From Bacteroidaceae bacterium (GTDB lineage: Bacteria; Bacteroidota; Bacteroidia; Bacteroidales; Bacteroidaceae): a stretch of 64,000 nt of DNA. This document shows positions 15,646-62,078 of the stretch, one piece after another (the stretch's first letter is position 1; every line of letters begins with the position of its first letter). The stretch spans positions 310,001 to 374,000 of the forward strand of contig JAFUFK010000016.1 of NCBI GenBank assembly GCA_017469925.1. Reading direction: 5' to 3'. The translations under genes and the position numbers were made by a program. Below the pieces are notes generated by a model. That model saw only the letters and a list, made by a program, of their open reading frames with translations, had not been told where the DNA came from and did no database searches.

Positions 15646-15865
15646 TCGCCGGGCGCCTCCGGGCTTCCCGTCGAGCCCCTATGTACTTCCCGTCGCGCGC
15701 CTCCAGGCTTCCCGCCGAGCCCCTCCTTCTTGTCCCCGAAGCCCTTAGACGCTAAATCAAACACACCACGGTGTATTATTTATCGAACCATGGTTCGATT
15801 GACGTTGAACCATGGTTCGCTGATATTTGAACCATGGTTCGATACATGTTGAACCATGGTTCGAT
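15646..15865 (+). repeat. 22-bp lattice array A (head rows plus palindromic rows)
   Basis: Ten consecutive 22-bp rows in one register. Rows at 15646, 15668, 15690, 15712 and 15734 are GC-rich, with consensus CCGYCGAGCCCCT in the first 13 columns; the last reads CCCCGAAGCCCTTAGACG. Then come five palindromic rows: a degenerate ACACCACGGTGT (15763-15774) and four identical GAACCATGGTTC (starts 15785, 15807, 15829, 15851). All palindrome centres are exactly 22 bp apart. The 10-bp spacers differ. The array fills most of the 505-bp gap between the phosphatase gene and the cyclophilin; I see nothing else in 15866-16040. Confidence 0.85.
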
Positions 15866-16040
15866 ATACTGGGTGTGTAGGAGTTTGAGCACGGGGGAGC
15901 AGGGGCGCGAGGGGCGGCGCTTAGGCGCGTTGTACGTGGCTCCCCTTTGTTTCGCGCCTTGCGGCCAGTCGCGGGTGGGGCCGTTCCCGCGCACGCGAAT
16001 CCATATTAATAGGTATTTTAAGATTTCTTTGCGGGAGAAA

Positions 16041-16073
16041 TTTGGCCGATACCGTTCTTTTCCGTACCTTTGC
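16041..16073 (+). promoter_or_regulatory. Promoter of the cyclophilin gene
   Basis: TTTG at 16041-16044, 20 bp, then TACCTTTGC at 16065-16073. The ATG at 16080 follows after only 6 bp, so the transcript should start at or very near the start codon. Confidence 0.75.
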
Positions 16074-16079
16074 CCTCCC

Positions 16080-16742
16080 ATGAGACTGAGAAACGCCATA
16101 TTGCTCACGATGATGCTCCTGCTGACGGCGGGGGCAGAGGCCCGCAAGCCCCGTCCGGCCGTGGTAAGGCTGGAGACGACGGCCGGTGTGATTCGTGTGG
16201 AACTGAGCGACGAGACGCCGCGCCATCGCGACAACTTCCTGCGCCTGGTCCGCGAGGGTCGGCTGGACAGCACCCTGTTCCACCGCGTCATTCGCGACTT
16301 CATGATACAGGGAGGCGACCCGCGTAGCCTCGACCCCGGGCGCGACTCCGTCGATTGGACCCTGCCGGCCGAGATACAATTGCCTTGGCTCTACCACGTG
16401 CGCGGCGCATTGGCGGCGGCACGCGAACCCGACGACGTGAACCCCGAATGGAGGAGTTCCGGCTCGCAGTTCTACATCGTCTGGGGCCGTTCGTGGGGCC
16501 CGAGCTCGTTGGGCAAGGCGCGTGCGCAACTCGACGAGAAGGGCATCGAGATGAGCCGTGAGATGTGGGAGACCTACCTCCAACACGGTGGTTCGCCCCA
16601 TCTGGACGGGCAATATACGGTCTTCGGCCACGTCATCGACGGCATGAAGGTGGTGAAAGCTATCCAGACCGTGCAGACCGATGCGGCAGACCGCCCGGTG
16701 GAGGACGTCGTCCTGCTCAGGGCCGTAGAGGAACCCCGTTGA
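16080..16742 (+). CDS. Cyclophilin-type peptidyl-prolyl isomerase, exported
   Basis: A 220-residue cyclophilin that isomerises Xaa-Pro bonds. The start at 16080 (MRLRNAILLTMMLLLTAGAEA) gives a signal peptide and lies just behind a canonical promoter; a longer reading from 15834 would include the repeat array and is unlikely. Family motifs are TTAGVIRVELSDETPRH, FHRVIRDFMIQGGDP (catalytic Arg in FHRVI), SSGSQFYIV and YTVFGHVIDGM. The segment between FMIQGGDP and SQFYIV is longer than in short bacterial cyclophilins. It probably works in the periplasm or outside. The M6 protease gene follows 27 bp after the stop and may share the transcript. Confidence 0.92.
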   Translation: MRLRNAILLTMMLLLTAGAEARKPRPAVVRLETTAGVIRVELSDETPRHRDNFLRLVREGRLDSTLFHRVIRDFMIQGGDPRSLDPGRDSVDWTLPAEIQLPWLYHVRGALAAAREPDDVNPEWRSSGSQFYIVWGRSWGPSSLGKARAQLDEKGIEMSREMWETYLQHGGSPHLDGQYTVFGHVIDGMKVVKAIQTVQTDAADRPVEDVVLLRAVEEPR

Positions 16743-16769
16743 ACAACTAACGATTAAACCTGTATAAAG

Positions 16770-19010
16770 ATGAAAAGACTTTCGATGATTCTTACGTTCG
16801 CCCTCGTGGCGATGGTCGCGCTCGCAGTGCCTGCGAAGCGCGGTGTGTGGAAGACCCTGACGATGGCCGACGGCACAGAGGTCAGGGCACAACTGGTGGG
16901 CGACGAACGCCTGCACTACTGGCTGACCGAAGACGGGCAGCGCCTGGTGGGCGAGCCTCGGAGCGACCGCTTCGTGGCCGTGAGCCAGAAGCAACTGGCT
17001 CAGCGCGCCATGCGCCGGACGACGAGTATCAACAAACTACAGAAGGCCCGTCAGCAGAAGCTGCGCCGCAAGGCTGCCTTCACGGGCACGAAGCGCGGAC
17101 TGGTCATCCTGGCCCAGTACTCCGACGTGAAGTTCCAGTCGGCCCACAACAAGGCCTTGTACGAGAACATCATGAACAAGGAGGGCTACACCGACAGTAA
17201 CGGCTTCCAGGGCTCGGTGCGCGATTACTTCAAGGCACAGAGCGGGGGAGTCTTCGACCTGCAATTCGACGTCGTGGGCCCCGTCACCCTGAGCAAGGCC
17301 CAGTCCTACTATGGCAGTAACGACGACAACGGCGAAGACGAGCACGCGGCCGAGATGGTGGCCGAGGCCTGCCAGCTGGCGGATGCCCAGGGAGTTGACT
17401 TCTCCCAGTACGACTGGACGGGCGACGGCGAGGTGGACCAGGTATATGTGGTCTATGCCGGCAAAGGAGAGGCCGACAGTGGCGTCGAGGAGACCATCTG
17501 GCCTCACGAGTACTCGCTCTCCGATGCGGCTGAGTACGGCGACGGCAGCGGTGCCCTGACCCTCGACGGAGTCAAGGTCGATACCTACGCCTGCGGCAGT
17601 GAGGTGGATGCCTACAACCACATCGAGGGCATCGGAACCTTCTGTCATGAGTTCTCGCACTGCCTGGGCTACCCCGACATGTACGATACGGACTATGCCG
17701 GATACTTTGGCATGGGCGACCTCGACCTGATGTGCTCGGGTTCGTACAACGGTGACGGCTTCGTGCCGGCCGGTTACACGGCCTGGGAGAAGTGGACGGC
17801 CGGTTGGCTCGAGCCCACGGAACTGAGCGACGAGGACGTAGCGGTGGAGAACCTGAAGGCCATAAGCGAGGGCGGTGGCGCCTACGTGATTTACAACCAG
17901 GCCCACAAGGACGAGTACTACCTCGTAGAGAACCGCCAGAAGACGGGCTGGGACCGCGAACTGCCTGCCAAGGGACTGATGGTGACACACGTCGATTACG
18001 ATGCCGAGCTCTTTGCCAACAACATCGTCAACACCGTCTATCCCTATAAGGATGCCTATGCCGACGCCTACGACTACTATAGCTACTACGTCGAGCTGGG
18101 CTACATCACCGAGGACGAGTGCACGGCCTACTGCGAGGAGTACGCCGAGGCGTATGCCAACGACTACGAGCGCATGACCATCTTCCACGCCGATAACGAC
18201 GACGACCGCAAGTACTGGAGGGAGGCTACCTACTCGTACTCGAAGACCACGACCTCGACCGACCTCTATCCCTATCTGGCTAACGACAGCCTGACGAACT
18301 TCTCGCGTCCGGCTGCTACCCTGCACAATGCCAATAAAGATGGTTCCTTCTTCATGAACCGCGGCATTACGGCCATCCGCCAGAATACGGACGGGACGGT
18401 GTCGTTCCAGTTCCTGGCCTCGGTGGCCAAGAAGGAGCAGGGCGACTTCCTCTTCTATGAGTCGTTCGACCAGTGCGACGGCAAGGGTGGCAACGACGGC
18501 GCGTGGAGCGGCCAGGTGGCCAACGGCACCTTCTCGCCCGACAACGAAGGTTGGGAGTCGGAGAAGTCGTTCGGCGCCGACCAGTGTGCCAAGTTCGGCA
18601 CGGGCAGCGTAGTCGGCGAGGCCACGACGCCTGCCATACAGTTGACAGGCGAATCGACGCTGACCTTCATGGCCGGTGCCTGGAATGCCAATGCCGACAA
18701 GACAACCCTGAACGTGACCGTAACGGGTGGCACTATAGAGCCTTCGACCTTCACCATCGCGAAGGGCAGTTGGACCAACTGCGAAGCCAAGGTGACGGGT
18801 ACGGGCACCGTGCGGGTGACCTTCACCTCGGCCGGCGGACGCTTCTTCCTCGACGAGGTTACCCTGTCGAAGCCCAGTGGCGACGGCGTGATTAGCGTTA
18901 ACGTTGACGTAGAGGATAGTAACACGATATACGACCTTGCCGGTCGTCGCGTCGTGAACCCGAAGAAGGGACTTTACATTATCGGAGGCCGCAAGGTCAT
19001 CGTCCGGTAA
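16770..19010 (+). CDS. Secreted M6-family metalloprotease with sorting tail
   Basis: A 746-residue exported zinc protease related to immune inhibitor A. The signal peptide is MKRLSMILTFALVAMVALA. A propeptide-like region to about residue 105 precedes the catalytic domain. The zinc motif HEFSHCLGYPD has His293, Glu294 and His297, with the third ligand expected in GYPDMYD. Acid-rich stretches (SNDDNGEDEH, ADNDDDRKY) may bind calcium. A C-terminal beta-sandwich (SFGADQCAKFGTGS) and the sorting-type tail (IYDLAGRRVVNPKKGLYI) follow. Targets are unknown; M6 proteases in gut species degrade host or dietary protein. Its last 14 bp overlap the convergent membrane protein gene. Confidence 0.9.
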   Translation: MKRLSMILTFALVAMVALAVPAKRGVWKTLTMADGTEVRAQLVGDERLHYWLTEDGQRLVGEPRSDRFVAVSQKQLAQRAMRRTTSINKLQKARQQKLRRKAAFTGTKRGLVILAQYSDVKFQSAHNKALYENIMNKEGYTDSNGFQGSVRDYFKAQSGGVFDLQFDVVGPVTLSKAQSYYGSNDDNGEDEHAAEMVAEACQLADAQGVDFSQYDWTGDGEVDQVYVVYAGKGEADSGVEETIWPHEYSLSDAAEYGDGSGALTLDGVKVDTYACGSEVDAYNHIEGIGTFCHEFSHCLGYPDMYDTDYAGYFGMGDLDLMCSGSYNGDGFVPAGYTAWEKWTAGWLEPTELSDEDVAVENLKAISEGGGAYVIYNQAHKDEYYLVENRQKTGWDRELPAKGLMVTHVDYDAELFANNIVNTVYPYKDAYADAYDYYSYYVELGYITEDECTAYCEEYAEAYANDYERMTIFHADNDDDRKYWREATYSYSKTTTSTDLYPYLANDSLTNFSRPAATLHNANKDGSFFMNRGITAIRQNTDGTVSFQFLASVAKKEQGDFLFYESFDQCDGKGGNDGAWSGQVANGTFSPDNEGWESEKSFGADQCAKFGTGSVVGEATTPAIQLTGESTLTFMAGAWNANADKTTLNVTVTGGTIEPSTFTIAKGSWTNCEAKVTGTGTVRVTFTSAGGRFFLDEVTLSKPSGDGVISVNVDVEDSNTIYDLAGRRVVNPKKGLYIIGGRKVIVR

Positions 19011-19359
19011 GCCAGGCGAAGGGCCGTCGGCGGGCGAGGTAGTCAGCCTCGGCCGAGTGGCGGTAGGCTTCGCGTTCGAAAAGAAGTTGGGCGTAGGCAT
19101 CGTAAATGTGGTGCCTGCGCTCTCCTTTTCTGACCCAGGGGAGTGTCACTATCTTGGCCAGGAGGCGGGCCGCCCACTCCGTCAGGTACCACAGGTAGAA
19201 GGGTAGGTAGAGCATCTCGCGCATCTGCCGCGTGTGGATGGCCTCGTGGCGGAGCAGTTCGCTATCCACCCGCTGTCCCCGACGCACAAAGATGAGGCCA
19301 CAGAAGTTGATGGCCGAGAACCCGGGAATGGGTAGCAGGCGGTTGGTGATGACTCTCAT
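18997..19359 (-). CDS. Small membrane-associated HEAIH protein
   Basis: A 120-residue protein with a hydrophobic N-terminal part (LLPIPGFSAINFCGLIFV), an LRHEAIHTRQMREM segment that contains HExxH, and a second hydrophobic stretch YLPFYLWYLTEWAARLL. The C-terminus is basic (YLARRRPFAWLTGR). HExxH in a membrane setting suggests a zinc peptidase-like protein, but at 120 residues it lacks room for a known peptidase fold, and I cannot name a family. It follows the SGNH esterase gene by 2 bp on the same strand, so the two are probably co-transcribed. Confidence 0.65.
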   Translation of the reverse strand: MRVITNRLLPIPGFSAINFCGLIFVRRGQRVDSELLRHEAIHTRQMREMLYLPFYLWYLTEWAARLLAKIVTLPWVRKGERRHHIYDAYAQLLFEREAYRHSAEADYLARRRPFAWLTGR

Positions 19360-19361
19360 GG

Positions 19362-21410
19362 CTATCGGGCGTTACGACTCTTTGCACGTTTCGGTTGGTA
19401 GCGCACGCTGTTCATGCTCTGAGCCAGGTTGGCGAGTTCGGTCTTATGGGCGTCGTCGAGCGGGACGTACAGCTCGAGGCTCGACTTCAGCATACCTCCC
19501 TTGGCCAGGGCCATGGCTTCGTCGGCATTCAGGGCCGAGCGCCAGAAGAAGAGCTCCGCAAAGTGGCGCTTGGTGCCTCGGCTCGTGGCATCGCCCACCG
19601 TGAACTTCTCCACGCGCATCCGCTCTACGGCTTCGACGCACTCTGTATCGACGAACAACTGGGTCAGCCGTTGGGCATAGCGATGACTAAGGGTGACCGT
19701 GTGGGAGACCTTGTCCTCGAGAGATATCTGGCAAACTATGCTGTCGCCCTGCGTCGAGCAGTAATAGACCTTATGGTCGCGGTTTACGCCTATCCACGCC
19801 TGCCGTCCGGAGGTGGTAAGGGTAAGTATGCGCCCGCGGTCGCTACCGCGCAGGGTCAGGCTGACGGTGAAGGGGTGCAGTATGCCCTCTGGCGTGAAGG
19901 TCAGGGTGTTGCCGCGCGCGAGAGTGAGTTCCTTCGTCTTGTCGCGCACGGGCAAGGGCTTGCCGGCGGCCAGTGCATCGAATAGGGAGGGTGGGATTGC
20001 ATACATCATCTCGCGATGCCCTGATGTATTGGGGTGGGACGGGTCGTTCTCGAATCCCGATGGCCAGTGCCCCTGTCCGTCGTCAACGGTTCCCAGGAGG
20101 TTCACCGATGGCACGTCCCACTCGTGGATGAGCAGGTTGAGTCGGCGCACGTAGGCATAGTCCCTGGCATTGAAGTCGGCGCGTCCGTAGTTGTTCATGA
20201 CTACGGGCACCTTGCCGTCAGCCCGAGCCATAGCGATAAGGCGCAGCATGTTGTCGCGCCACTGTTCGAAGACGACCTGCTGGCGCTTGCTGTTGTGAAT
20301 ACCTTCGTTGCCCAGCGAAACGCCGAAGACGACGTAGCGCCCCAGGTCAAAGACAAGGTCGTTGTAGCGGTTGAGCAGATGGGTGGTCGTGTTGCCGCCT
20401 ATGCTTATGTTTGATATGGTGAAGGGCCACTGGCTGGCACCCGACTGGGTGCGCTGGCGGAGTTGTTGGTCGAAGAGCCAGGCATAGCCGTGGTCGTTGG
20501 CGGCTCCCGTACCATGAGCGACAGACGAGCCGAAGACCGATATGCGACATGTATCGAGGTATCGGTAGGAGTCGGTCTGGGGCGTGACGCCCTCTGGCTT
20601 TGTCAGGGCGTCATGGGCCGCCTGTCGGGCTATGATGGCCAAAGGTTCGCTGATGGTCTTCGGCCGAAAGGTTAGGCCTACCGGCGAGACGCCAGTCAAC
20701 GCCTCCAGCCAGGTGCAGGCTGCCGTGTATCGGCCTACCGTCTTGTCCAGGTGGTAACCGTCGCGGTTGAGATGGTCGCCGAGTACGCTGGTCCGTGCGT
20801 TTTGTATGGCCGTGCCGGTGGGTATGATGAAGGCCAGTTCCCGATGTCCTCGGCGTGCCTTGCCGACGGCCTCCACGATACTCTCATACATCCGCCACTG
20901 GTCGCCCTCGTAGTTGGCAAAGCCTGCATGTGTGGCATTTTGTGCGTAGGCCCATGTCTGGTGGAATCCGTAGCGCACCTGATGGTCACCGAGCTTTTGC
21001 CTGACGTGGGTCAGCAGGTTTCGTAGGAAGGGAACGTAGGTGATGTATAGGCCCGCGTCCTGGCTTACCTGTTGCAGGGTAACGATGTCCCACGGCTCGT
21101 CGGTCAGAATGCTGTCCAAGGCCGTCTCCTTCCTGTTCGTCCGCGTGCCGCCTACCACCTTCCGGTACTCGAAGGCCTTCTCCCCCTTGCTTACTGCATT
21201 CCAGTGCGACTCCAGCCCTTGTCCACCTCGGTAGGCATTGCCGATAATAAGGTTGTAGCCAGCCTCGCGCCCCAGTTCATACAGGTTCTGCTCGACAGCG
21301 TCCTCGGAGAAAGAGTTGCCGATGGCCAGCACGCGCAGGGTGGTCTGGGCCACCGCAAGGGCGGGCATCAGGGTCGTGAAGAGTAGGACTGCCAGAAGTA
21401 TGCGTTTCAT
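19362..21410 (-). CDS. Secreted protein with two SGNH-type domains and a LamG-like end
   Basis: A 682-residue protein starting at the ATG at 21410 (MKRILLAVLLFTTLMPALAVAQ, signal peptide); an ATG 24 bp upstream abuts the TATCTTTGC box at 21435-21443. The first half resembles DUF4886: VLAIGNSFSEDAVEQN, then LQQVSQDAG and DGYHLDKTVGRY. The second half is a GDSL/SGNH hydrolase: SVFGSSVAHGTGA, SIGGNTTTHLL, SLGNEG, and a Ser-His catalytic end DPSHPNTSGH. A beta-sandwich resembling LamG closes it. Such pairs remove acetyl or other esters from glycans. GH29 is transcribed divergently from the same gap. Confidence 0.82.
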   Translation of the reverse strand: MKRILLAVLLFTTLMPALAVAQTTLRVLAIGNSFSEDAVEQNLYELGREAGYNLIIGNAYRGGQGLESHWNAVSKGEKAFEYRKVVGGTRTNRKETALDSILTDEPWDIVTLQQVSQDAGLYITYVPFLRNLLTHVRQKLGDHQVRYGFHQTWAYAQNATHAGFANYEGDQWRMYESIVEAVGKARRGHRELAFIIPTGTAIQNARTSVLGDHLNRDGYHLDKTVGRYTAACTWLEALTGVSPVGLTFRPKTISEPLAIIARQAAHDALTKPEGVTPQTDSYRYLDTCRISVFGSSVAHGTGAANDHGYAWLFDQQLRQRTQSGASQWPFTISNISIGGNTTTHLLNRYNDLVFDLGRYVVFGVSLGNEGIHNSKRQQVVFEQWRDNMLRLIAMARADGKVPVVMNNYGRADFNARDYAYVRRLNLLIHEWDVPSVNLLGTVDDGQGHWPSGFENDPSHPNTSGHREMMYAIPPSLFDALAAGKPLPVRDKTKELTLARGNTLTFTPEGILHPFTVSLTLRGSDRGRILTLTTSGRQAWIGVNRDHKVYYCSTQGDSIVCQISLEDKVSHTVTLSHRYAQRLTQLFVDTECVEAVERMRVEKFTVGDATSRGTKRHFAELFFWRSALNADEAMALAKGGMLKSSLELYVPLDDAHKTELANLAQSMNSVRYQPKRAKSRNAR

Positions 21411-21488
21411 CACGTGTCGTCTGTCGTTGTGCATGCAAAGATACTTATTTAATTACGAATGGGCAATGGATAATTGACAATTATTTTA

Positions 21489-21497
21489 TATCTTTGC
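21489..21497 (+). promoter_or_regulatory. -7 box of GH29 gene
   Basis: TATCTTTGC at 21489-21497 is 7 bp before the ATG at 21505. The AT-rich sequence just upstream (21450-21488) has TAATTGACAATTATTTT, a string that recurs before the flippase gene at 45499-45540. Confidence 0.6.
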
Positions 21498-21504
21498 CTT
21501 CGGT

Positions 21505-22779
21505 ATGAAGAAATTGTTACTCCTTATCGTGGCCTTGTCGTCGGTGACGACGAGCCTGCGGGCCGCTTACGAGCCGACCCAAGAGAACCTGCAACATCGT
21601 CGTGACTTCGAGGAGATGCGCTTTGGCATCTTCCTGCACTGGGGCATCTACAGTATGTTTGCTCAGGGCGAATGGTATCTGAACTCGGGCCTGCAACAGG
21701 CGGAGTACTCGAAGGTGGCCGACGCGTTCTACCCCCATCGCTTCGACGCCCGCGAGTGGGTGCGGGCCATCAAGGCCTCGGGCGCTCGCTACATCACGCT
21801 GACGAGCCGCCATCACGACGGTTTCTCGCTCTGGCCTACGCAGGAGAGCAACTACAATGTGGTGGCCGCCACCCCCTTCGGGCGCGACGTCATCCGTGAA
21901 CTCTCCGACGCCTGCCGCGAGGAGGGCATCGCTTTCCACCTCTACTACAGCATCCTCGACTGGATGCGGCCCGACTATCCCCTGGGGCGAACGGGACTGC
22001 GCACCGGGCGCACGCCGCAGCCCGACTACGACCACTACTTCCAGTTCATGAAGCGGCAGTTGCGCGAACTTCTGATGCAGTACGACAACGTCGGTGCGCT
22101 CTGGTTCGACGGCTATTGGGACCACGACCAGGACTCCGTGCCCTTCGACTGGCGCATGCCCGAACTCTATGCCTACTGCCACTCGCTGAAACCTTCGTTG
22201 CTCATCGGCAACAACCACCATATCTCGCCGCTCGAGGGCGAGGATTTCCAGATGTTCGAGCGCGACCTGCCTGGCGAGAACACGGCAGGCCTCTCGGGCC
22301 AGGACATCAGCCACCTGCCCCTGGAGATGTGCCAGACGATGAACGGCATGTGGGGCTATAAGGTCTCGGACACCAATTACAAGTCGGCTCAGGAACTCAT
22401 CCGCCTGCTTGTGCGTGCGGCCGGCAAGGGCAGCAACCTGCTCCTGAACATCGGTCCGCAGCCCAACGGCGAACTGCCAGCCCAGTCACTCGAGCGTCTG
22501 CAACAGATGGGCACCTGGATGAAAGCCAATGGACATACCATCTACGGCACCACGCGCACACCTCTGGGCGAGGGCGATTGGGGCACGACGACGCAGCGGG
22601 ATGGGGTAGTCTATGTCCACGTGCTCGACCCCGACAGCCGACAGCTGAGCCTGCCGATGGCGAAGCGCCCGCACAAGGTGTCGGCCTCCTCGAAGTACGA
22701 CAAGCGGACTCGGGCATTAACAATCTACCTCCCCGAACACGCCGAGGAGGTAGATTATATCGTCACCATCAAGTTATAA
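21505..22779 (+). CDS. GH29 alpha-L-fucosidase
   Basis: A 424-residue exported fucosidase (signal peptide MKKLLLLIVALSSVTTSLRA). GH29 enzymes release alpha-L-fucose from plant or host glycans. Family marks are RFGIFLHWGIYSMFAQGEWY, LTSRHHDGFSLW, FHLYYSILDW, and ALWFDGYWDH, where Asp202 is the likely nucleophile. The enzyme is short, with only a small C-terminal beta domain after about residue 340 and no extra binding module. It could act on fucosylated arabinogalactan or xyloglucan, or on mucin; the sequence does not decide. It is convergent with the transglutaminase-like gene 26 bp away. Confidence 0.93.
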   Translation: MKKLLLLIVALSSVTTSLRAAYEPTQENLQHRRDFEEMRFGIFLHWGIYSMFAQGEWYLNSGLQQAEYSKVADAFYPHRFDAREWVRAIKASGARYITLTSRHHDGFSLWPTQESNYNVVAATPFGRDVIRELSDACREEGIAFHLYYSILDWMRPDYPLGRTGLRTGRTPQPDYDHYFQFMKRQLRELLMQYDNVGALWFDGYWDHDQDSVPFDWRMPELYAYCHSLKPSLLIGNNHHISPLEGEDFQMFERDLPGENTAGLSGQDISHLPLEMCQTMNGMWGYKVSDTNYKSAQELIRLLVRAAGKGSNLLLNIGPQPNGELPAQSLERLQQMGTWMKANGHTIYGTTRTPLGEGDWGTTTQRDGVVYVHVLDPDSRQLSLPMAKRPHKVSASSKYDKRTRALTIYLPEHAEEVDYIVTIKL

Positions 22780-22805
22780 GCCGGTCGGCGAGTCGCCTTC
22801 AGGGC

Positions 22806-27223: not shown

Positions 27224-27227
27224 AGGC

Positions 27228-33826: not shown

Positions 33827-33848
33827 GCTTATACCAGTGCGAAGTGCT

Positions 33849-34046
33849 CCCCGCAGCGCTTAGATGTTCTATGACTTGCTTCTATATGTCTGTGCCGAAA
33901 GACGCGCGTCTTTCGGCTGCAAGATGCGCGTCTTTCACCTGTAAGATGCGCGTCTTTCACTTGTAAGATGCGCGTCTTACATCACAGGCTATTAATCGTT
34001 TCTCCAGAGGCAATTAGGTGTTTCGGGCAAAGCGCTTATAAGAAGA
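33849..34046 (+). repeat. 22-bp lattice array B
   Basis: Rows of 22 bp in one register: a head row CCCCGCAGCGCTTAGATG (33849), a degenerate row (33871), then four palindromic rows with AAGACGCGCGTCTT (33899) and three AAGATGCGCGTCTT (33921, 33943, 33965). Spacers are 8 bp. Rows at 33981 and 34003 lose the palindrome but keep the TTTC end in register. The head row matches the head row of array A at 16 of 22 positions, and in both arrays it lies two rows before the first strong palindrome. The last row runs into the hairpin at 34038. Confidence 0.82.
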
Positions 34047-51390: not shown

Positions 51391-51470
51391 GTCTGTCAGT
51401 TTTTCGCTGCAAAGATACGAATAAAAGTTTAATCGTTTAATCGTTTAACCGTTTATTTTCTCGGCCCTCT

Positions 51471-51615
51471 TATCGTTCGGCCGCGGTCGAACGATGATTC
51501 GTCCGCGGTGGAACGTTCGTTCGTCCACGGCCGAACGACGAGAACCTTTCGTCGTTCGATGCCGATGGAATGTTCGTTCAATGCGCATCGAACGAACGAC
51601 CGATGCGCATTGAAC
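51471..51615. repeat. 22-bp lattice array C
   Basis: Palindromes of the form GTTCGNCCRCGGNSGAAC are centred at 51483.5, 51505.5 and 51527.5, exactly 22 bp apart. A second set of the form GTTCRATGCGCATCGAAC is centred at 51562.5, 51584.5 and 51606.5, again 22 bp apart but shifted relative to the first set. Between them lies a 10-bp stem hairpin (51532-51558). The array is in the 341-bp gap between divergent rlmD and ppdK. No CTTAG head row is visible here. Confidence 0.75.
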
Positions 51616-51656
51616 GATGGGATTTTCTCTTGTCAATACTATTTTGGGGCTTATAA

Positions 51657-54452: not shown

Positions 54453-54466
54453 GCCAACCGATAATC

Positions 54467-54500: not shown

Positions 54501-54511
54501 CTTTTAAGCCC

Positions 54512-54691: not shown

Positions 54692-54694
54692 GCC

Positions 54695-55677
54695 ATGCGA
54701 CGATTGCTCTCCTTACTCCTAATAGCCTTGGGGCTATCAATGCCAGACGGTCTGTCTGCCCAGCGGGTGCGCTACGGCGTTCCCCTCGATTCCATCCGCC
54801 TCAGCGACCCAGCCATCCTGGCCGACTCCGTGACGCACATGTACTACATGACGGGCACCGGTGGTCAGATGTGGACGAGTCGCGACCTGCGCCTTTGGGA
54901 CGGACCCTTCCGCGTCGCGCAAACCGACCCCGAGGGGTGGATGGGGCCGCGTCCGATGATTTGGGCGGCCGAACTGCATCAGTACAAGGGCAAGTACTAT
55001 TACTTCGCGACGTTTACCAATCGCGACGTCATTGTCAGCGAGTATCGTGGCAACAAGATCGAGCGACGCGCCTCGCAGGTCTTGGTCAGCGACTCGGCAC
55101 GTGGCCCGTATCATCAGTTTGGCGATGCCGCCTACCTGCCAGCCGACCGCCCGACGCTGGACGGCACCTTCTGGGTCGATACCGATGGCCGGCCCTACAT
55201 GGTCTTCTGTGGCGAATGGCTGGCCAACTGGAACGGCACGATTGAGAAGGTGGAGCTGAAGCCCGACCTCAGTGGCGTCGTGGGCGAACCTCAGGTGCTC
55301 TTCCGTGCGAGCGATTCGCCGTGGAGCCGCGAACGCGACGAAGAGGGCAACGTCATCTTTAATAAGGTGACCGATGGTCCTTGGCTGTTCCGCACCGCAA
55401 CAGGCCGCTTGGGCATGCTCTGGACCTCGTGGGTCTATAAGGACTACACGCAGGGCGTGGCCTACTCCCTCAGCGGCACGCTCGACGGACCTTGGGTGCA
55501 GGAGCCCGAGCCCATTACGCCGCCCAACTACGGCCACTCGATGCTCTTCCGCACCTTTGAGGGAGAGTGGATGATGTCCGTCCACCACCACGCCACTGAC
55601 GAAAGGGGGCGCACTCGTCGTACGCCCATCTGTTCCCCATCGACCTCTCGGGCGACAAGTTACGCGTGATATATTAA
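54695..55677 (+). pseudogene. GH43-like glycosidase with a C-terminal frameshift
   Basis: A secreted GH43-type enzyme (signal MRRLLSLLLIALGLSMPDGLSA). Blade motifs: LSDPAILADSVTHMYYM, IWAAELHQYKGKYYYF, LDGTFWVDTDGRPYMVF, FNKVTDGPWLF. The zero-frame reading ends at 55669 with an unlikely Arg/Ser/Pro tail after HHHATDERG. A -1 shift near 55607 (GAAAGGGGG) restores KGAHSSYAHLFPIDLSGDKL and ends at 55677, the expected GH43 ending. Either one A was lost from the A/G run or the sequence has an error. Only the last 20-25 residues are affected, so activity may remain. Confidence 0.72.
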
Positions 55678-55697
55678 GAGAAAGAGTGTTCCTGTCT

Positions 55698-56150
55698 TTA
55701 CTTCGTAAATTGCTTCATGTCCTCCAGCGTGATTGTGCCGGAGATGTTGATGAGGCTTAGTTGTTCGTCGTCCACTTGCAGCAGGGCAAACTCGCTTTTG
55801 CCGTTTTTCAGGGAACGCTGGTAGATGGTGACCTGCTCGCCATCCTCGCTCACGCGCATCATTTCTTCATATTCGTCGCGCTTGTAGGCTGCCAGTGCTG
55901 CCTTCTTGATTTCTGCGGCCAACGACTTTTTTTCGCAGTTGAGGATGCGCACTGCGTCCATTTTACTTGCCATCTTTCCTAACTTCTTATCGCCAATCGA
56001 GGCAAAACCGCCAGCCAGATTCAGCATGGCTTTCGAGATGAAGACGGTGGTCACGTCTTTCGTGTCCTCGTATTTGTCAAAAACTTCTTTCTGTGCATTG
56101 GCCGTCGCGCCGATGAGCACGAGCAGGGCCATCAAAATTATCCTTTTCAT
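55698..56150 (-). CDS. DUF4252 domain protein, copy 1
   Basis: A 150-residue exported protein (MKRIILMALLVLIGATANAQ). The DUF4252 core reads VFISKAMLNLAGG, RILNCEKKSLA, YEEMMRVSEDGEQVTIYQR and SLINISGTITLEDM. The family is found next to ECF sigma operons in Bacteroidota and its role is unknown. This is the last gene of the set DUF4252 - sigma - anti-sigma - DUF4252. It differs from copy 2 (57000-57422) by an extra segment near residues 48-62 (ASIGDKKLGKMASK). Confidence 0.88.
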   Translation of the reverse strand: MKRIILMALLVLIGATANAQKEVFDKYEDTKDVTTVFISKAMLNLAGGFASIGDKKLGKMASKMDAVRILNCEKKSLAAEIKKAALAAYKRDEYEEMMRVSEDGEQVTIYQRSLKNGKSEFALLQVDDEQLSLINISGTITLEDMKQFTK

Positions 56151-56154
56151 ATTC

Positions 56155-56499
56155 CTAATTCTGATTATCGATAAAACTAATTCCTTTGTTAATGCTCTCT
56201 GAGAAGGCCGCGAGGGCGCGCTCTGTCTCGCGTTCGGTGTGCCGGTAGGTCATGAAGGCCAGGCCGAAGAGGATGAGCAGCGAAGCCGCCACACCGCTAA
56301 TCCAGCGCATCATGACCGTGCGCCCGCGTCGTTCGGTGAGCCTTTCCACCTTGTTCCAGCCGTCTATCTGTCGGCTTAGTCGCTCCTCCAGACCCGTCGG
56401 GGCGTTGTCGGCAAAGAACCTGGTCAGTTCCCGTTCCTCCTGCTCCGTCGTCTCGGCGCGGAGGTAATGTTCCAGCTTATCTTCTATATTGTTTTTCAT
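56155..56499 (-). CDS. Probable anti-sigma factor, single membrane span
   Basis: A 114-residue protein with a charged N-terminal helical part (YLRAETTEQEERELTRFFAD) and one membrane helix (WISGVAASLLILFGLAFMTY). The cytosolic helix followed by one span is the layout of small membrane anti-sigma factors. It overlaps the sigma gene by 4 bp. No zinc-binding HxxxCxxC motif is present. The periplasmic end is only about 30 residues, too short for the long anti-sigma type used in SusC-linked signalling. Confidence 0.78.
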   Translation of the reverse strand: MKNNIEDKLEHYLRAETTEQEERELTRFFADNAPTGLEERLSRQIDGWNKVERLTERRGRTVMMRWISGVAASLLILFGLAFMTYRHTERETERALAAFSESINKGISFIDNQN

Positions 56500-56990
56500 A
56501 ATTCACGGTTAAAGTGTTGTCTTATCGCCCGTCGGGCTCGGCTCAGCAGGGCGCGTACGTTTACTTGGGTCAGTCCTGTCGTCTGGGCTATCTCGTCGTA
56601 GTCCCTGTCCTCCACGTCACGCAGGGTGATGACGCGACGCTGGTTCTCGGGCAGTTCGTCAATGAGGCGCCGGACCAGTTCTGCATGGTCGCGCAGTTCG
56701 GCTTCACGGTAGAGGTCGTCGCCTGAGGGTAGGAGGGACGCGTCGGTGGGCAGTGAGGTTTCGGGGTGACGTACACGGCGCAGGTCGAGGAATCGCCTTT
56801 GCACGAGCCTGACGCAATAGGCTTCGGCATTCTGAATCTCGGGAAGCGTGTCGCGTTGTGTCCAGAGTCGGAGGAACACGTCCTGCACCAGGTCTTCTGC
56901 CTCCTGTCGGTTCTCCGTCAGTCGCCATGCCGCCCAGTACATCCGTCGGCTCTGGGGCAGGAAGGTCCTCTTGAACTCGCTCGCTTCCAT
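56496..56990 (-). CDS. ECF-type RNA polymerase sigma factor
   Basis: A 164-residue sigma-70 family protein. Region 2 is YWAAWRLTENRQEAEDLVQDVFLRLW; region 4 is LPENQRRVITLRDVEDRDYDEIAQ followed by a helix-turn-helix (TGLTQVNVRALLSRARRAI). It is the second gene of the four-gene set, 9 bp after copy 2 of DUF4252 and overlapping the anti-sigma gene. It probably controls its own operon and perhaps other surface-stress genes. Confidence 0.93.
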   Translation of the reverse strand: MEASEFKRTFLPQSRRMYWAAWRLTENRQEAEDLVQDVFLRLWTQRDTLPEIQNAEAYCVRLVQRRFLDLRRVRHPETSLPTDASLLPSGDDLYREAELRDHAELVRRLIDELPENQRRVITLRDVEDRDYDEIAQTTGLTQVNVRALLSRARRAIRQHFNREL

Positions 56991-56999
56991 TCCCTCGGT

Positions 57000-57422
57000 T
57001 TAGTCAAGCATGTCGTTTATGGCGTTTAATTCCTCCAACGAGAGGTTGCCCGTCACGTTCACAAGGGCCAGTTCGTCGTCCATGGCCAGGATGGCGTACT
57101 CGTTCTTGTTGCCCTTTAGGGGGCGGTGGTAGATAATCACCTGCTCGTCCCCGTCCTTCACACGCATCATCTCTTCGTAGCCGTCCCGTTTGTAGGCGGT
57201 CAGGGCATCAGCCTTTATCTTCAAGGCCACGTCCTTCCTTTCGCAGGTCATCACGCGCAGGCCGCTCACCTTGTCGCCCAGCGATGCCATGCGCATCAAG
57301 AACTTGGGGATGCGAATTGTAGTCACGCCCTCCGCATCCTGATATTTCTGGAACACATCCTTTTGTGCCTGGGCTCCCAAGCTCATCAGCGCGAGCAGGG
57401 CCACCATCATAATCCTTTTCAT
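57000..57422 (-). CDS. DUF4252 domain protein, copy 2
   Basis: A 140-residue exported protein (MKRIMMVALLALMSLGAQAQ). It parallels copy 1: VTTIRIPKFLMRMA, RVMTCERKDVALK, YEEMMRVKDGDEQVIIYHR and ALVNVTGNLSLEEL. It is the first gene of the operon, 9 bp before the sigma gene. Two paralogs flanking a sigma/anti-sigma pair suggest a sensor or effector role, not shown by sequence. Confidence 0.88.
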   Translation of the reverse strand: MKRIMMVALLALMSLGAQAQKDVFQKYQDAEGVTTIRIPKFLMRMASLGDKVSGLRVMTCERKDVALKIKADALTAYKRDGYEEMMRVKDGDEQVIIYHRPLKGNKNEYAILAMDDELALVNVTGNLSLEELNAINDMLD

Positions 57423-57525
57423 TGTCTTTCGTCTTTAGATTGTTTGTCCGTTTCGAGAACGCTCTCAACTATTCAGACGAAGTGGCGCCGCGTTTTGTGA
57501 CACGAGGTGACAGATTTTCGCTATA

Positions 57526-57870
57526 TTAGAATGGTTGTGATATACTTTTCAGTCGTTCGAGAACACGGAATATTTGGTTCCGAGGATAGTTGCCTCGTTC
57601 CAAATAATGCCGTTCCTCGTCCATCCATAAATAATCAACTACTTTCTTAATATCAGACAAAATCTCTTCCGTTAGCAAAGGTTGTACAATAAATTCCGCA
57701 GTTGAGAAATGTGCCTCAGTTATCCATAGGTTGTTTTCAAGCAAGTTTTTGACAGCCTCTTGTTTGTTTTTACCGTTGGCACACCCTAATACTTGACAAT
57801 TTTCAACCTCCACCACTTCATTAGGGGCAGTGGTATGTCCCTCGGTGGTATATATAATGTATTTATTCAT
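57526..57870 (-). CDS. Hypothetical protein next to the DpnI-type gene
   Basis: A 114-residue protein of unknown family (MNKYIIYTTEGHTTAPNEVVEVENCQ in two parts, then NGKNKQEAVKNLLENNLW). It looks cytosolic, with alpha/beta character and no metal or catalytic motif. Its start is 2 bp after the stop of the endonuclease gene, so it is translated from the same message. Base use is clearly more AT-rich than the neighbouring genes, like the endonuclease, which suggests they arrived together. Confidence 0.7.
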   Translation of the reverse strand: MNKYIIYTTEGHTTAPNEVVEVENCQVLGCANGKNKQEAVKNLLENNLWITEAHFSTAEFIVQPLLTEEILSDIKKVVDYLWMDEERHYLERGNYPRNQIFRVLERLKSISQPF

Positions 57871-57872
57871 AG

Positions 57873-58643
57873 TTATAGTTTCTTATAATGCCCCGGCTTT
57901 GTAAATTCAATAAATCCCTTATCTCTGAGATATTGTAATTGTTGGCGAATTTTGTCACGGATAAAGTTGTTGTCAGGGTGTTTCGCTTGTAATTCATCAG
58001 CAAAAGCATAGACCTGATTTAAGGTGAATGCATTATCGGGAATTCGTTCTACACACTTCAATACATCCATTAGCCAGCCTCGACCGTCCAGTCTTGAGGT
58101 TTGTAGTGAGAGTGTCCGTTGATATCGCTCTACCACTCGTTCTTTATCTTCCTCCACTCCATTTCGGACAATGAATATTCGGCCACTTTCTGGGATGTTT
58201 CCTATTTCGATATTACATCCTACCCAACCAGCTCTTCGAGCCGTATCCTTTAAGGGAGGACGTTTCTCTATAATCTCGGGAACAAAGAAATAGTTGGGAA
58301 TAATGAGCAAATTATTTACGGTCCAATTGGTGTAAGTCATTACGAATAGGTGGGGATTACGAAACGATGTAATGCGGTCTATCATAGTGCGGTATGCGCC
58401 ATCTGCAATCTTATGTCCTATAGTAGCTGTCTTGCTCTCTTTACTCTTTAACTCGAAATCTGATTTGCATCTTTCGCAGAAGAAGTCTGCCACGGGTCTG
58501 TTGGCTTCATAGTGACCAAGTATTGTAGCACCACATACAGGACAATACATGTTGTGAGCCAGCCAGTCCTCGGTCAGTACACGTGATATTTGTGAAGCAC
58601 TTTTATATCCCTTCTCCAACTCTATATTAAAGTGTAAATCCAT
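57873..58643 (-). CDS. DpnI-type methyl-dependent restriction endonuclease
   Basis: A 256-residue protein matching DpnI along its length. DpnI cuts GATC only when adenine is methylated. Start ATG 58643 gives MDLHFNIELEKGYKS, as in DpnI; the TTG at 58661 is not needed. A zinc site is formed by Cys34, Cys37, Cys56 and Cys59 (CPVCG, CERC). The PD-(D/E)xK site is Asp53 in RPVADFF and Glu64-Leu-Lys66 in FELKSK. TARRAGWVGCNIEI is a further family block. The C-terminal winged helix ends FIRDKIRQQLQYLRDKGFIEF. A truncated dam gene lies just upstream, and a 114-aa gene follows. Confidence 0.93.
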   Translation of the reverse strand: MDLHFNIELEKGYKSASQISRVLTEDWLAHNMYCPVCGATILGHYEANRPVADFFCERCKSDFELKSKESKTATIGHKIADGAYRTMIDRITSFRNPHLFVMTYTNWTVNNLLIIPNYFFVPEIIEKRPPLKDTARRAGWVGCNIEIGNIPESGRIFIVRNGVEEDKERVVERYQRTLSLQTSRLDGRGWLMDVLKCVERIPDNAFTLNQVYAFADELQAKHPDNNFIRDKIRQQLQYLRDKGFIEFTKPGHYKKL

Positions 58644-58685
58644 GTTTTCTCTATTTAACAAGGCATAGAAATCTTTAATTCCTGT

Positions 58686-58859
58686 TCAATTCAGAAAGCG
58701 CTGCAACATAAAGAACAGCATGGCACCACCGCCCACGAAAGGTTCCACATAGGTGAATGGTTCGTGTTCTAACTCGGCAGGCAACAAAGATTCCAACTGC
58801 CAGAGAAGTTGACCTTTTCCACCTACCCATTTAATGAATGGACTTGCTTTTCTTTTCAT
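58686..58859 (-). pseudogene. Truncated DNA adenine methylase (dam-type) N-terminus
   Basis: A 57-codon reading frame, MKRKASPFIKWVGGKGQLLW, then FTYVEPFVGGGAMLFFML, ending RFLN and a stop. FIKWVGGKGQLL and EPFVGGGAMLF are the two SAM-binding motifs at the start of Dam/DpnM-type methylases, which are normally about 270-285 residues. The rest, including DPPY, is gone. It lies 42 bp upstream of the DpnI-type gene, same strand. It looks like the remnant of a GATC-methylating cassette that is incompatible with DpnI activity. Confidence 0.85.
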
Positions 58860-58872
58860 GCGTCATTGGCAG

Positions 58873-59268
58873 TTATAGTTCCCGCTTCAGCCTTACTGTC
58901 ACTTCCTGCGCCCAGGTGGCATCGCGACCGACGGGCAGGTGCAGCGTGCGTTCCCGCGTGGCGAGCACGATTTGGTAGTCGTTGGGGAAGTAGGGGATGG
59001 CAGCGTTGTTGAAGGTCACGTCCCTGATGTCCTGCTTCGTGATGCGCTGTCCGTTGTAGATGATGTGGTCGGCATAGACGAGGATGGCTCCGTCGGGTTC
59101 GTTGCCGCGCAGAGGGTCAAGTACAATGATGTCGTTGGGTTCTCCGTTCACGTCTATAAGGTCATCGAGGGTCGGGCGCGGTGCCTCGTCCTTCTTTTTC
59201 TTGTTTAGGTACACGCCGCCCAAGGGCAGGCACAGGGCGACGGCAATGATGAAGAGTAAAAGTGTCAT
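58873..59268 (-). CDS. Membrane-anchored protein of unknown function
   Basis: A 131-residue protein with one N-terminal membrane helix (MTLLLFIIAVALCLPLGGVYL) and a soluble beta-rich part (DDIIVLDPLRGNEPDG-like, ILVYADHIIYNGQRITKQDI, YQIVLATRERTLHLPVG) that could be a PH-like fold. It starts 15 bp after the GH31 stop, so it may be co-transcribed. Its 3' end lies 13 bp from the dam remnant, the edge of the AT-richer island. Confidence 0.7.
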   Translation of the reverse strand: MTLLLFIIAVALCLPLGGVYLNKKKKDEAPRPTLDDLIDVNGEPNDIIVLDPLRGNEPDGAILVYADHIIYNGQRITKQDIRDVTFNNAAIPYFPNDYQIVLATRERTLHLPVGRDATWAQEVTVRLKREL

Positions 59269-59283
59269 TGACGTGCTTTTATA

Positions 59284-61650
59284 TTACAATTTAATGCTTA
59301 CGGCCTTGCCCTCGTAGGTGACCGTCTTCACGTCCTGGTGGCCGGCGAGGCGGATGCGGAAGGTGCGCTGCTGGAGCATGCCAGGGAACTGGCCCTCGCG
59401 GCGGCCGATGGTGAGTTGGTGCTTCTTGTCGTTCCACTGGAAACGGATGGTCGAGCGCTGGCCCTGCTCGTATCGGTACGAGTCGCCCTCGTCCTCATAG
59501 AGCTCGAACTTAGCATCCTCGCCCGGATAGACACGGATTTCGAGGTCGTCCCACTGACGCTCCTGGGCGTATTGCATAACGGGGGCCAGGGGCAGGATAG
59601 AGCCCGCGCGTACCATCATCGGGGTGTCGCCGAGCGTGGTCCTGAGTGTAACCTCCTGACCGCCCTGGTGGGGTTGCTCCGTCAGGAAGTCGTACCACGT
59701 GGTGCCCTTGGGGAGGTAGCGGGTGATGGCCTTGGGCTGACTGAAGTCAACCGCATTGGCCGGGCGCGTGTCTTCCGTAGTGTATTGCGGACGCACTACG
59801 GGCAGGGCCAGGATGCTCCGGCCGAAGAGGAACTCGTCGCCCAGGTCCCACGTGCGCTGGTCCTCGGGGAAGTCATAGACGAGTGCGCGCATGAAGCTGT
59901 CGCCCTCGTGGCTTACGGCCCAGGCCGTGCTATAGATGTAGGGCATGAGCTGGTAGCGCAGGCGTATGGTCTGCTCTATGGCATCGAAGGCGGGTTCTCC
60001 ACGCCGGCCAAACTGGTATATCTCGCGCGGTGCGTCGGCCCCATGGCTTCGGAAGACGGGACAGAAGAGTCCGAACTGCATCCAGCGGACGTACAACTCC
60101 TGATAGTTAGGATTCTTGGGTGCGTTGCTACCGCCATAGCGGCCGCAGAAGAAGCCGCCGATGTCGGTGTTTATGTAGGGCGCGCCCGTCATCGTATAGT
60201 TGAGGCATAGGGGTATCTGGCGGCGCAGGACGTCCCACGACGAGGTGATGTCGCCGCTCCACAGGCCGCCTGCGTAGCGTTGCTGTCCGGCGAAGGCTGA
60301 GCGTGTCATGATGAACACGCGCTTGTCCCCGGTCGTCCGGCGCTGGTTGTCATAGACTCCGCCTACGGAGGCCAGGGGGAAGGCGTTGCGATGCGAGCGC
60401 CACGTGCCCTGAGCCGCTATGCCCAGCGAGGGCGACGCCCCGACGGGGCGGTTGTAGTCCTCGTCCTTCGGACCCACGTAGTCGGGGTCGGTCGAGTCCA
60501 TCCACCAGGCATCGACGCCATAGTCGAGCAGTTTCCTGAGGTACTTCCAGTAGATGTTGCGCGCCTCCTGGCTATAGGGGTCATAGACGCGCACGCCGCT
60601 CGGGTACTCCCGCTTCGGGGGCCAGATACCCGAGCCGCTTTGCGGCCACGTCTCGAAGTCGAAGAGCAGGCCCTTCTCGTCCAGTTCCTTGTACTGGTGG
60701 GTCATAGGTCCGAAGCTGGCCCAGATACTAATCATCAGGTGGGCATTCTGCTCGTGTACGCGCTTGACCATACGCTCTCCGTCGGCAAACTCCTCGTTGA
60801 GGAAGTCCATTGCATTCCACAGATAGTTCGAGCCCCAGTATTGCCAGTCCTGGATGATACCGTCGAGGGGCACCCCGTTCTGGCGGTGCCAATCGACGAC
60901 CTCAAGGAGTTCGCGACTCGACTTATAGCGTTCGCGGCACTGCCAGTAGCCGTAGGTCCACAGGGGCATAAGCGGAGCCTGGCCCGACAGCTGGCGCATC
61001 AGGCGGTTCACCCCGTCGGCCGACTCTCCGTACATAAAGTAGTAGTCCACTCTCTCGCCAGTCTCGGGCGCGAAGGTCATGCCCTCCCCGTTGTCCACAA
61101 AGTCGGCCCGCGAGTAATGGTCCCAGTAGATGCCCCAGCCCTTTAGGGACTGGACGACGTACTGAAAGTCCTCCAGGTTCGACTGCTCCATCATCCGCCG
61201 CTCCGTGCCTCGGCGGTTCATCCGTCCGTCCTGCATGGCCCCCAGGCCATAGATGGGTTCGTCGGGGGAGAGCATGTAGGTCACCGTCGGGCGCGGCTCC
61301 AGTCCGCACGTCTTCTCCTTTAGTAATAAGGAAGCACGCGCGCGCGAGGCGAAGCTCACGAGTCCCGTCCTTTGGTCGATGGTGGCCGAGAGTTGGCTGC
61401 TTTGGGCCGTAGTCTCCGTGGCCGAGTGCCGGACGCTGACCTTCAGGTCGCGCTGGGGTTCCAGGGTCACGACAAGGCTCCGCGCGGGCTCCTTCGCCTG
61501 GGCGGTGGTGTGCTCTACGCGCACGATGGTGGGCGAGAGGAAGGTCAGGCGTGTCACGCCCCCCGGTGTCTCTACGCTGATGGGCAGGTTCTCGGCGTGT
61601 GCTCCCAGGGCGATGGCCACGAGCAGCAGCAGGCTTGCGATTCGTCTCAT
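59284..61650 (-). CDS. GH31 family alpha-glycosidase (alpha-xylosidase/glucosidase type)
   Basis: A 788-residue exported enzyme (MRRIASLLLLVAIALGAHA). An N-terminal beta-sandwich ends with EPIYGLGAMQDGRMNRRG; the barrel has GIIQDWQYWGSNYLW, the nucleophile Asp in DAWWMDSTDPDYVG and the acid Asp in the FRSHGAD-ITSSWDVLR region. A C-terminal beta domain with DEFLFGRSILALPVV follows. GH31 members cut alpha-glucose, alpha-xylose or alpha-galactose; the STDPD form is common in xylosidase-like clades. Upstream lies TATATTTGT at 61689-61697 and array D. Confidence 0.92.
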   Translation of the reverse strand: MRRIASLLLLVAIALGAHAENLPISVETPGGVTRLTFLSPTIVRVEHTTAQAKEPARSLVVTLEPQRDLKVSVRHSATETTAQSSQLSATIDQRTGLVSFASRARASLLLKEKTCGLEPRPTVTYMLSPDEPIYGLGAMQDGRMNRRGTERRMMEQSNLEDFQYVVQSLKGWGIYWDHYSRADFVDNGEGMTFAPETGERVDYYFMYGESADGVNRLMRQLSGQAPLMPLWTYGYWQCRERYKSSRELLEVVDWHRQNGVPLDGIIQDWQYWGSNYLWNAMDFLNEEFADGERMVKRVHEQNAHLMISIWASFGPMTHQYKELDEKGLLFDFETWPQSGSGIWPPKREYPSGVRVYDPYSQEARNIYWKYLRKLLDYGVDAWWMDSTDPDYVGPKDEDYNRPVGASPSLGIAAQGTWRSHRNAFPLASVGGVYDNQRRTTGDKRVFIMTRSAFAGQQRYAGGLWSGDITSSWDVLRRQIPLCLNYTMTGAPYINTDIGGFFCGRYGGSNAPKNPNYQELYVRWMQFGLFCPVFRSHGADAPREIYQFGRRGEPAFDAIEQTIRLRYQLMPYIYSTAWAVSHEGDSFMRALVYDFPEDQRTWDLGDEFLFGRSILALPVVRPQYTTEDTRPANAVDFSQPKAITRYLPKGTTWYDFLTEQPHQGGQEVTLRTTLGDTPMMVRAGSILPLAPVMQYAQERQWDDLEIRVYPGEDAKFELYEDEGDSYRYEQGQRSTIRFQWNDKKHQLTIGRREGQFPGMLQQRTFRIRLAGHQDVKTVTYEGKAVSIKL

Positions 61651-61748
61651 AGTGGATTGGGTTTTATGGTTTCAGATTGTTTTCGCTCACAAATATACGC
61701 ATTTTTCCGCACACCGCCACACGTTTCGCCCAGAATCCTTCGTCGCCG

Positions 61749-62078
61749 CCGGCCAAGCGCCTGGGCGGTGGGGGCGGAACGCCTAATAGTCCGGCCCCGA
61801 ACGCCTAATAGTTCAGCCTCGAACGCCTAATAGTTTGAGCCAAAAGATATATATGTTAGCGGAAACGGATAACTATCTTATCGCAATAAGATAGTTATCT
61901 TTCAGGCAAAAGATAGTTATCTTACACCTGTAAGATAGTTATCTTATCTCATGAAGACCTAAGAGATTTCGAGCGAAGACCTAAGAGATTGCGGCCAAAC
62001 GCCTAAGAGATTTCGGCCAAACGCCTAAGAGATTGTGACCGAAGGCATAGGTGTCCCTGGCCAAACGCCTAAGAGCCT
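61749..62078 (-). repeat. 22-bp lattice array D, fifteen rows in three blocks
   Basis: Fifteen 22-bp rows in one unbroken register. Block 1 (61749-61836): four rows with ACGCCTAATAG, the first degenerate. Block 2 (61837-61946): five rows with AAGATAGTTATCTT or degenerate forms, at 61844, 61866, 61888, 61910 and 61932. Block 3 (61947-62078): six rows with CCTAAGAGATT, the fifth degenerate. Many rows share GGCCAAA in the first half, as in GCGGCCAAACGCC. Blocks 1 and 3 stay in phase across block 2. Read on the minus strand, CTTAG falls in the same columns as in the head rows of A and B, ahead of the palindromes. The array fills most of the 463-bp gap between the kinase and GH31. Confidence 0.85.

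Follow-up and report, generated by a model that had tools for sequence, protein, structure and literature searches.

Among the described systems that come closest to the palindrome arrays treated here, repetitive extragenic palindromes and bacterial interspersed mosaic elements (REP/BIME) are short dispersed intergenic palindromes with fast turnover and Y1 transposases (REP-associated tyrosine transposases, RAYT), and the iterons of plasmid R6K are direct, non-palindromic repeats of 22 bp at a single origin. A third system is found in Porphyromonas gingivalis, which belongs to the same bacterial order as the host of the genome under study. This element, BrickBuilt, is a minisatellite/miniature inverted-repeat transposable element (MITE) with a tandem 23-nt unit (AGAYCATARTATCCTCTCRTRTG) in 1 to 22.8 copies, a leader and a tail that carry terminal inverted repeats, and predicted stem-loops; it is restricted to the species, where one genome has it at 19 intergenic sites (PMC4596501). 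In operators of Lrp/AsnC-type regulators, several 13-17 bp palindromes stand two or three turns apart and the DNA is wrapped on an octamer of four dimers (PMC2995911, PMC10201364). The arrays described below occupy four intergenic gaps (A to D) in a stretch of 64,000 nucleotides from a Bacteroidaceae bacterium (positions 310,001 to 374,000 of contig JAFUFK010000016.1; hereafter the window), in which an initial annotation had noted palindromes repeating every 22 bp.

The palindromes of these arrays are members of dispersed families, usually with four rows per array, and the row that had been called a conserved head is a still recognizable copy from a second palindrome array that has decayed and that borders the cores on either side, in both orientations. 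No description of such arrays was found in the open-access PubMed Central (PMC) literature, of which a few listings were judged by title, subscription papers being mostly outside the scope.

Results

The window is part of a 2.87-Mb genome in 28 contigs, which is 86% complete. A 66-base self-match scan for each period from 12 to 44, with 200 dinucleotide shuffles in 500-base blocks as the null, yielded four regions of period 22 (15608-15884, 33871-34018, 51450-51541 and 61734-62091); the top self-match was 58/66, the shuffle maximum 36/66, and none of the 200 shuffles reached 40/66. The only other periods at the same level were 44, an echo, and 33, in one region (6517-6615). That the four arrays repeat without drift holds for A, B and D, where the lattice is exact, but not for C, in which the first two strong dyads (51483 and 51527) are separated by two periods and the next strong dyad, 51584, follows at +57 bp, 13 off the lattice and with a different palindrome. 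The head rows of A and B, said to lie two rows before the first palindrome, indeed have their dyads exactly 44 bp ahead of the first core dyad, and in D the motif CCTAAT/CCTAAG is on the palindrome lattice in both flanks. The features are as follows.

15646..15757: array A, five degenerate outer rows on the 22-bp lattice (Tandem Repeats Finder gives period 22 at 15647-15726; four rows by eye)
Dyad between 15746 and 15747: array A, last outer row and head row of the initial annotation, AGCCCTTAGACG, lattice phase tested
15785..15862: array A core, four copies of GAACCATGGTTC (15785-15796, 15807-15818, 15829-15840, 15851-15862)
15918..15927: array A, far-side outer row in the CGCTTAGGCG region, dyad between 15922 and 15923, six periods past the first core dyad
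33851..33872: array B, outer row and head row of the initial annotation, dyad between 33861 and 33862, two periods ahead of the core
33899..33978: array B core, four copies of AAGA(C/T)GCGCGTCTT starting at 33899, 33921, 33943 and 33965
33834..34038, plus strand: array B, stretch found again at two further loci of this genome (identities 83% and 80%) and containing an outer row with its dyad between 34015 and 34016
51475..51536: array C, first half, GTTCGNCCRCGG..CGAAC-type palindromes with dyads 51483 and 51527 and a weaker row between
51550..51617: array C, second half, GTTCRATGCGCATYGAAC-type palindromes, dyad 51584 computed, adjacent 22-bp rows by eye
61775..61840: array D, three outer rows GAACGCCTAATAGTT on the lattice
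61844..61945: array D core, AAGATAGTTATCTT three times (61888, 61910, 61932)
Within 61844..61945: first two rows of the array D core, one degenerate and one with inverted centre (..GATAACTATCTT), by eye
61953..62078: array D, far-side outer rows, ACGCCTAAGAGATT and variants, five with motif words on the lattice and one degenerate row read by eye

Arrays of an 8-bp unit (GTTTAATC/GTTTAACC), a separate repeat type, were also seen in gaps, namely just ahead of array C (window 51427-51455) and at two sampled loci (L013 7514-7728 and L030 1358-1571; L and G numbers denote loci and genomes of this analysis).

Contrary to the proposal of a palindrome specific to each locus, GAACCATGGTTC of array A occurs at 13 places in four loci (contigs 1, 6 and 10), spaced within a locus by 22 or 44 bp, AAGATAGTTATCTT occurs in array D and on contig 13, and array B has 205 bp in common with two loci of this genome, the ends of which show by eye neither terminal inverted repeats nor a target site duplication. 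The palindrome AAGATGCGCGTCTT was found by BLAST at eight loci of this genome, all eight with exactly four rows at 22, 22 and 22 bp, and at three loci of the genome G001, one with four rows and two with three. The palindrome AACCAGTSACTGGTT has at least 16 loci, and its adjacent pairs (at most two mismatches) stand at 53 forward places in this genome (control 0) and in none of the 40 other genomes searched; viral contigs gave no exact match to the pair. Four matching rows are present in 10 of 12 distinct AACCAGTSACTGGTT arrays, five and six in the other two, and rows and spacers, including a changed left arm of row 3, are kept by position in most of the 16 loci read (exceptions are L167, L170 and L173); therefore, the core has been block copied as a unit. 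Some copies have nothing obvious in common outside this core, which measures 81 bp from first to last palindrome, and in the copies compared by eye, neither a target duplication nor terminal repeats other than the palindromes were seen. Across ten families, several species included, four matching rows characterize 33 of 43 distinct arrays, where entry to the list needed at least three matching rows and row patterns were set by hand. Left of at least nine of the 16 AACCAGTSACTGGTT cores (L019, L021, L023, L027, L032, L044, L047, L168 and L169), a 30-40 bp tract of alternating purines and pyrimidines (..ACGCGTACGCTCGCACATGCGCGTTGG) was observed, and G020 has a comparable tract on the downstream side of htpG (L140).

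The row type shared by A, B and D exists, but in D it lies on both sides of the palindromes and not only ahead of them. The consensus derived from 48 outer rows, CCCAAACGCCTAAGAGTTTGGG, is a near-palindrome spanning the whole 22-bp unit; as these rows were chosen by their central six letters, the centre of the consensus is fixed by choice, the outer letters are not. When eight hexamers of the outer motif were located up to 200 bp from 14 cores of three families, 53 of 55 centres had their dyad on the 22-bp lattice of the core (within 1.5 bp; 7.5 expected), so that in the sampled part the head row recurs in register at other loci. At five loci whose flanks had been unseen when the words were chosen, 20 of 21 centres were on the lattice. 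As centres were found on both sides of the cores and in both orientations, the idea of an oriented element with one conserved head is not supported. Distances between outer-motif pairs in the whole sample fall at 22 (23 pairs), 44 (13), 66 (11), 88 (4) and 110 bp (2), and no other distance from 5 to 120 has more than two pairs; backward control words, with nearly three times more centres, gave three pairs at 22 and two at 44. Over the entire genome, 26 CCTAAG pairs spaced by 22 bp were counted (none for the backward control), while each of 29 other genomes of the genus has 0 or 1, except G018 with 5 (control 0 to 3). The register is held although the outer rows of different loci are near random in sequence, the identity of non-core rows between loci being 0.32 for the same row, 0.29 for other rows and 0.26 off the lattice, and sequence information is concentrated in the palindrome arms.

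The sample from this genome consists of the window and 39 further stretches (777,878 bases, 0.78 Mb), in which an array was defined by a self-match of at least 60.6% across three periods with simple repeats excluded, coding status was judged with a home-made gene caller, and palindromy was assessed by comparing the rows of an array with column-shuffled rows. Period 22 is represented by 23 arrays, all non-coding, of which 21 are palindromic (20 in a repeat with other random numbers), period 23 by 10 arrays, all non-coding and six palindromic, and period 21 by two arrays, one of them non-coding and palindromic. The remaining periods from 13 to 45 reach at most seven non-coding arrays (period 14), with at most two palindromic; of the 16- and 21-bp arrays, those inspected mostly consist of 8-mer or 7-mer repeats or are coding, and arrays of periods 15 and 18 are mostly coding. 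In the sampled part, 22-bp palindrome arrays thus stand far above the other periods as well as above the shuffles, and 22 is the main pitch of this genome, but not a universal one, since 23 is a real second pitch with palindromes of its own (AGGTTAAYWTAACCT, CTGCCATACTRTGGCAG and TGTCAC..GTGACA types). As some stretches had been picked around earlier matches, density was taken from a less biased subset of 338,494 bases, where nine arrays at 22 and five at 23 amount to about one per 24 kb, which extrapolates to roughly a hundred arrays per genome. Two of the 23-bp arrays, of unlike palindrome types, are adjoined by DUF6078 genes (L029 226-786; L042 1064-1537).

The initial idea of a lattice that stays constant as the palindrome varies is supported, and in related species of this group of gut bacteria the lattice recurs with other letters: 22-bp arrays of palindromes particular to each genome are present in G020 (AAGACGSSCGTCTT), G016 (ATACGACCGGTCRTAT types) and G012 (GGTTAACC types), and G013 has a 21-bp family, TGAAAATNNATTTTCA, at three loci. 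The stretches from G004 (60 kb) and G003 (15 kb) contain no such arrays. Around four conserved genes in other genomes of the genus (111 loci, of which a few overlap, 443,359 bases) there are 14 arrays of period 22, six of them palindromic, and at most five arrays for any other period. In G001 (L067 17379-17736), a 22-bp lattice of 16 rows was observed to combine three row kinds, with AAGACGCGCGTCTT in the middle and different types to the left and right. Other families of the order contributed one palindromic array in 395,300 bases from fifteen genomes, and 200,000 bases in ten stretches from the rest of the class yielded single arrays at 21 and 23, neither of them palindromic. The array from the other family, a 22-bp palindrome array (CAACGTTCTTGCAAGAACC; L100 11584-11700), suggests that the array class may not be confined to the genus.

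Turnover can be followed at the gap of array C, which lies between the starts of the pyruvate phosphate dikinase (PPDK) gene and a divergent gene for a TRAM-domain methyltransferase. Among 26 relatives' loci compared, a motif test keeps the pair in 18, not in seven, and one lacks a start; 17 of the 18 relatives with the same divergent pair have no 21-23-bp array there. Fifteen of these array-free gaps measure 111-209 bp compared with 341 bp here, one is 383 bp long, and for one, in G045, the start call is unreliable. In G020 this gap holds a different 22-bp array, which did not pass the palindrome test. At this one locus, turnover is fast.

With respect to gene context, 35 arrays comprise 13 between co-directional, nine between convergent and nine between divergent genes, with four unplaced, against a background of 83 co-directional, 26 convergent and 37 divergent gaps of at least 150 bp. 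The 12 placed AACCAGTSACTGGTT arrays divide into six convergent and six co-directional with none divergent, a further four lying at contig edges. The 30 flanking proteins scanned, of 52 listed, include PPDK, a sigma-70 factor, GreA, MraW, glycosidases and two HU-HIG proteins; three have no Pfam family at all, and this mixture led us to reject neighbouring genes as a clue to function. Genes for HU-HIG DNA-binding proteins adjoin a GAACCATGGTTC array and an AAGATGCGCGTCTT array (L013 19363-19833; L175 2086-2571).

Discussion

With even confidence, the arrays are read here as dispersed intergenic repeats in which selection acts on the even spacing of a row of dimer sites along duplex DNA. Each row would be the putative site of a dimeric DNA-binding protein, and adjacent dimers would touch, such that the exact spacing is selected while the letters are free to drift with the protein. 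Nucleation may take place at the four matching core rows, as the strong part, with extension of the row onto the weaker sites of the flanking CCCAAACNCNTANGNGTTTGGG rows, and the elements would multiply inside species and turn over quickly between them. Pitch, dyads, palindrome families, the frequent core of four rows, block copying of cores and the common register of two palindromes are what the data show; the excess at period 22, the outer centres on the core lattice and the relatives without an array in the gap of array C speak for this reading. This agrees with the earlier suggestion of protein sites facing one side of the DNA as the likely logic, although the iterons named as a model fit poorly. 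In 61 AACCAGTSACTGGTT rows with matching arms the central position is occupied by G (32 rows) or C (29 rows) and never by A or T, as is expected at a two-fold axis of duplex DNA, and some spacers appear reverse-complemented at the same row position; both observations fit such an axis, or small hairpin inversions.

Several points weigh against a selected row of dimer sites. In this genome the sites of the 23-bp families would wander around the helix if the DNA were not wrapped, and the register breaks within array C. Instead of four matching rows, ten of the 43 arrays show three, five or six, and two of the three G001 arrays have three. The centre restricted to G or C and the flipped spacers could also stem from small hairpin inversions, and the register could reflect growth and shrinkage by whole units instead of selection. 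Gene contexts are mixed, and therefore no single regulatory role is evident.

Selfish MITE- or REP-like repeats without host function, moved by a host enzyme for which the palindromes are the recognition sites, are judged unlikely, even though whole cores at many loci of one species and not in the relatives searched, presence and absence at the conserved gap of array C, and some AACCAGTSACTGGTT copies with nothing obvious in common beyond the 81-bp core would fit such mobility. Terminal repeats beyond the palindromes and target duplications were not seen by eye in the copies compared, the 30 flanking proteins scanned, of 52, contain no transposase family at E 0.001, and two palindrome types on one lattice are left unexplained. 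The Y1 transposase family PF01797 is over the cut-off in four of 25 genomes of the genus (G003, G010, G013 and G021), these genomes being 61-92% complete so that the gene may be missed, and not in the array-bearing G001, G012, G016, G020 or this genome, where one match falls below the cut-off; RAYT mobilization was rejected on the latter ground. A neutral minisatellite process, in which slippage or unequal exchange acts on a 22-bp unit and palindromes are a by-product of hairpin-prone replication, accounts for the variable row number (five and six matching rows at L170 and L173) and for small inversions such as the spacer AAGCCGA, which reads TCGGCTT in L044, or the alternation of TCGCCGA/TCGGCGA and AAAATTT/AAATTTT, but it leaves the frequent core of four, one pitch for many unrelated units and the in-register mix of two palindromes without explanation and is highly improbable.

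That transcribed arrays act at the RNA level as hairpins, for example as terminators or stabilizers of 3' ends, appears rather improbable. Four arrays that were folded, array A among them, fold strongly on both strands (z -6.1 to -13.4), three of them by pairing rows 1-2 and 3-4, yet rows of palindromes fold by construction and array A pairs rows 1-4 and 2-3, for which reason a conserved fold of the former kind was rejected. T runs at most 9 nt from the core accompany five of six arrays in G020 and both in G012, compared with 6% per side at random intergenic places, but are rare beside AAGATGCGCGTCTT (0 of 10), AACCAGTSACTGGTT (2 of 12) and GAACCATGGTTC (1 of 4); a terminator composed of a hairpin and a T run was accordingly rejected as general role. 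The preference of AACCAGTSACTGGTT arrays for gene 3' ends speaks for RNA, the nine of 35 arrays between divergent genes against it, and at the gathering threshold Rfam yields only a tRNA in the window and nothing in six other stretches. Strand-specific RNA selection was rejected as well, with 45 G-T versus 47 A-C mismatches in 61 arrays (111 other mismatches); single arrays appear polarized in this respect, which is explained by rows copied from one another. Very doubtful, finally, is the view that the arrays are operators of Lrp/AsnC-type regulators, whose octamers of four dimers wrap DNA in which several palindromes of 13-17 bp follow one another at about two turns. An octamer of this kind would be well matched by four rows, and the TGAAAATNNATTTTCA rows of G013 resemble a published Lrp-type site, but only two Lrp/AsnC genes found in an 86%-complete genome are set against at least eight palindrome types, and operators are not known to be block-copied to 16 loci. 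The geometry does agree with that described in the operator studies (PMC2995911, PMC10201364). One Lrp protein per palindrome family was rejected on the same count of two genes.

Returning to rows of dimer sites, we tentatively extend this reading to a genus-wide lattice, in which a protein family would form dimer rows at a two-turn pitch on roughly a hundred intergenic platforms per genome, with the palindrome repeatedly replaced between species and two site types, a strong core of four and weaker flanks, in one register. While selection usually keeps the letters, here it is apparently the spacing that persists as the letters change. Should a row of proteins be the cause, the genus would represent a natural series of array types in which specificity varies at constant geometry, making cooperative assembly and the evolution of DNA specificity directly testable. 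In addition, a period of 21-23 together with dyads is a simple signal by which such systems can be spotted in unannotated intergenic DNA.

Comparison with known systems

The array palindromes are short, intergenic and dispersed like REP/BIME, from which the fixed 22-bp lattice of four distinguishes them. With the R6K iterons they have in common that copies are about two turns apart and on one face, whereas the arrays are palindromic, numerous and scattered over ordinary intergenic gaps of the chromosome. Unlike Lrp/AsnC operators, which are tied to particular promoters, they are many dispersed copies in a genome with few Lrp genes. By inspection, the BrickBuilt unit AGAYCATARTATCCTCTCRTRTG is not among the array units here, no search having been run with it. 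The arrays resemble BrickBuilt, which is intergenic, tandem, present at many sites per genome, species-restricted and predicted to form stem-loops (PMC4596501). Where BrickBuilt is described with a single unit sequence (PMC4596501), the present arrays display changing palindromes at one pitch and a second palindrome in register with the first.

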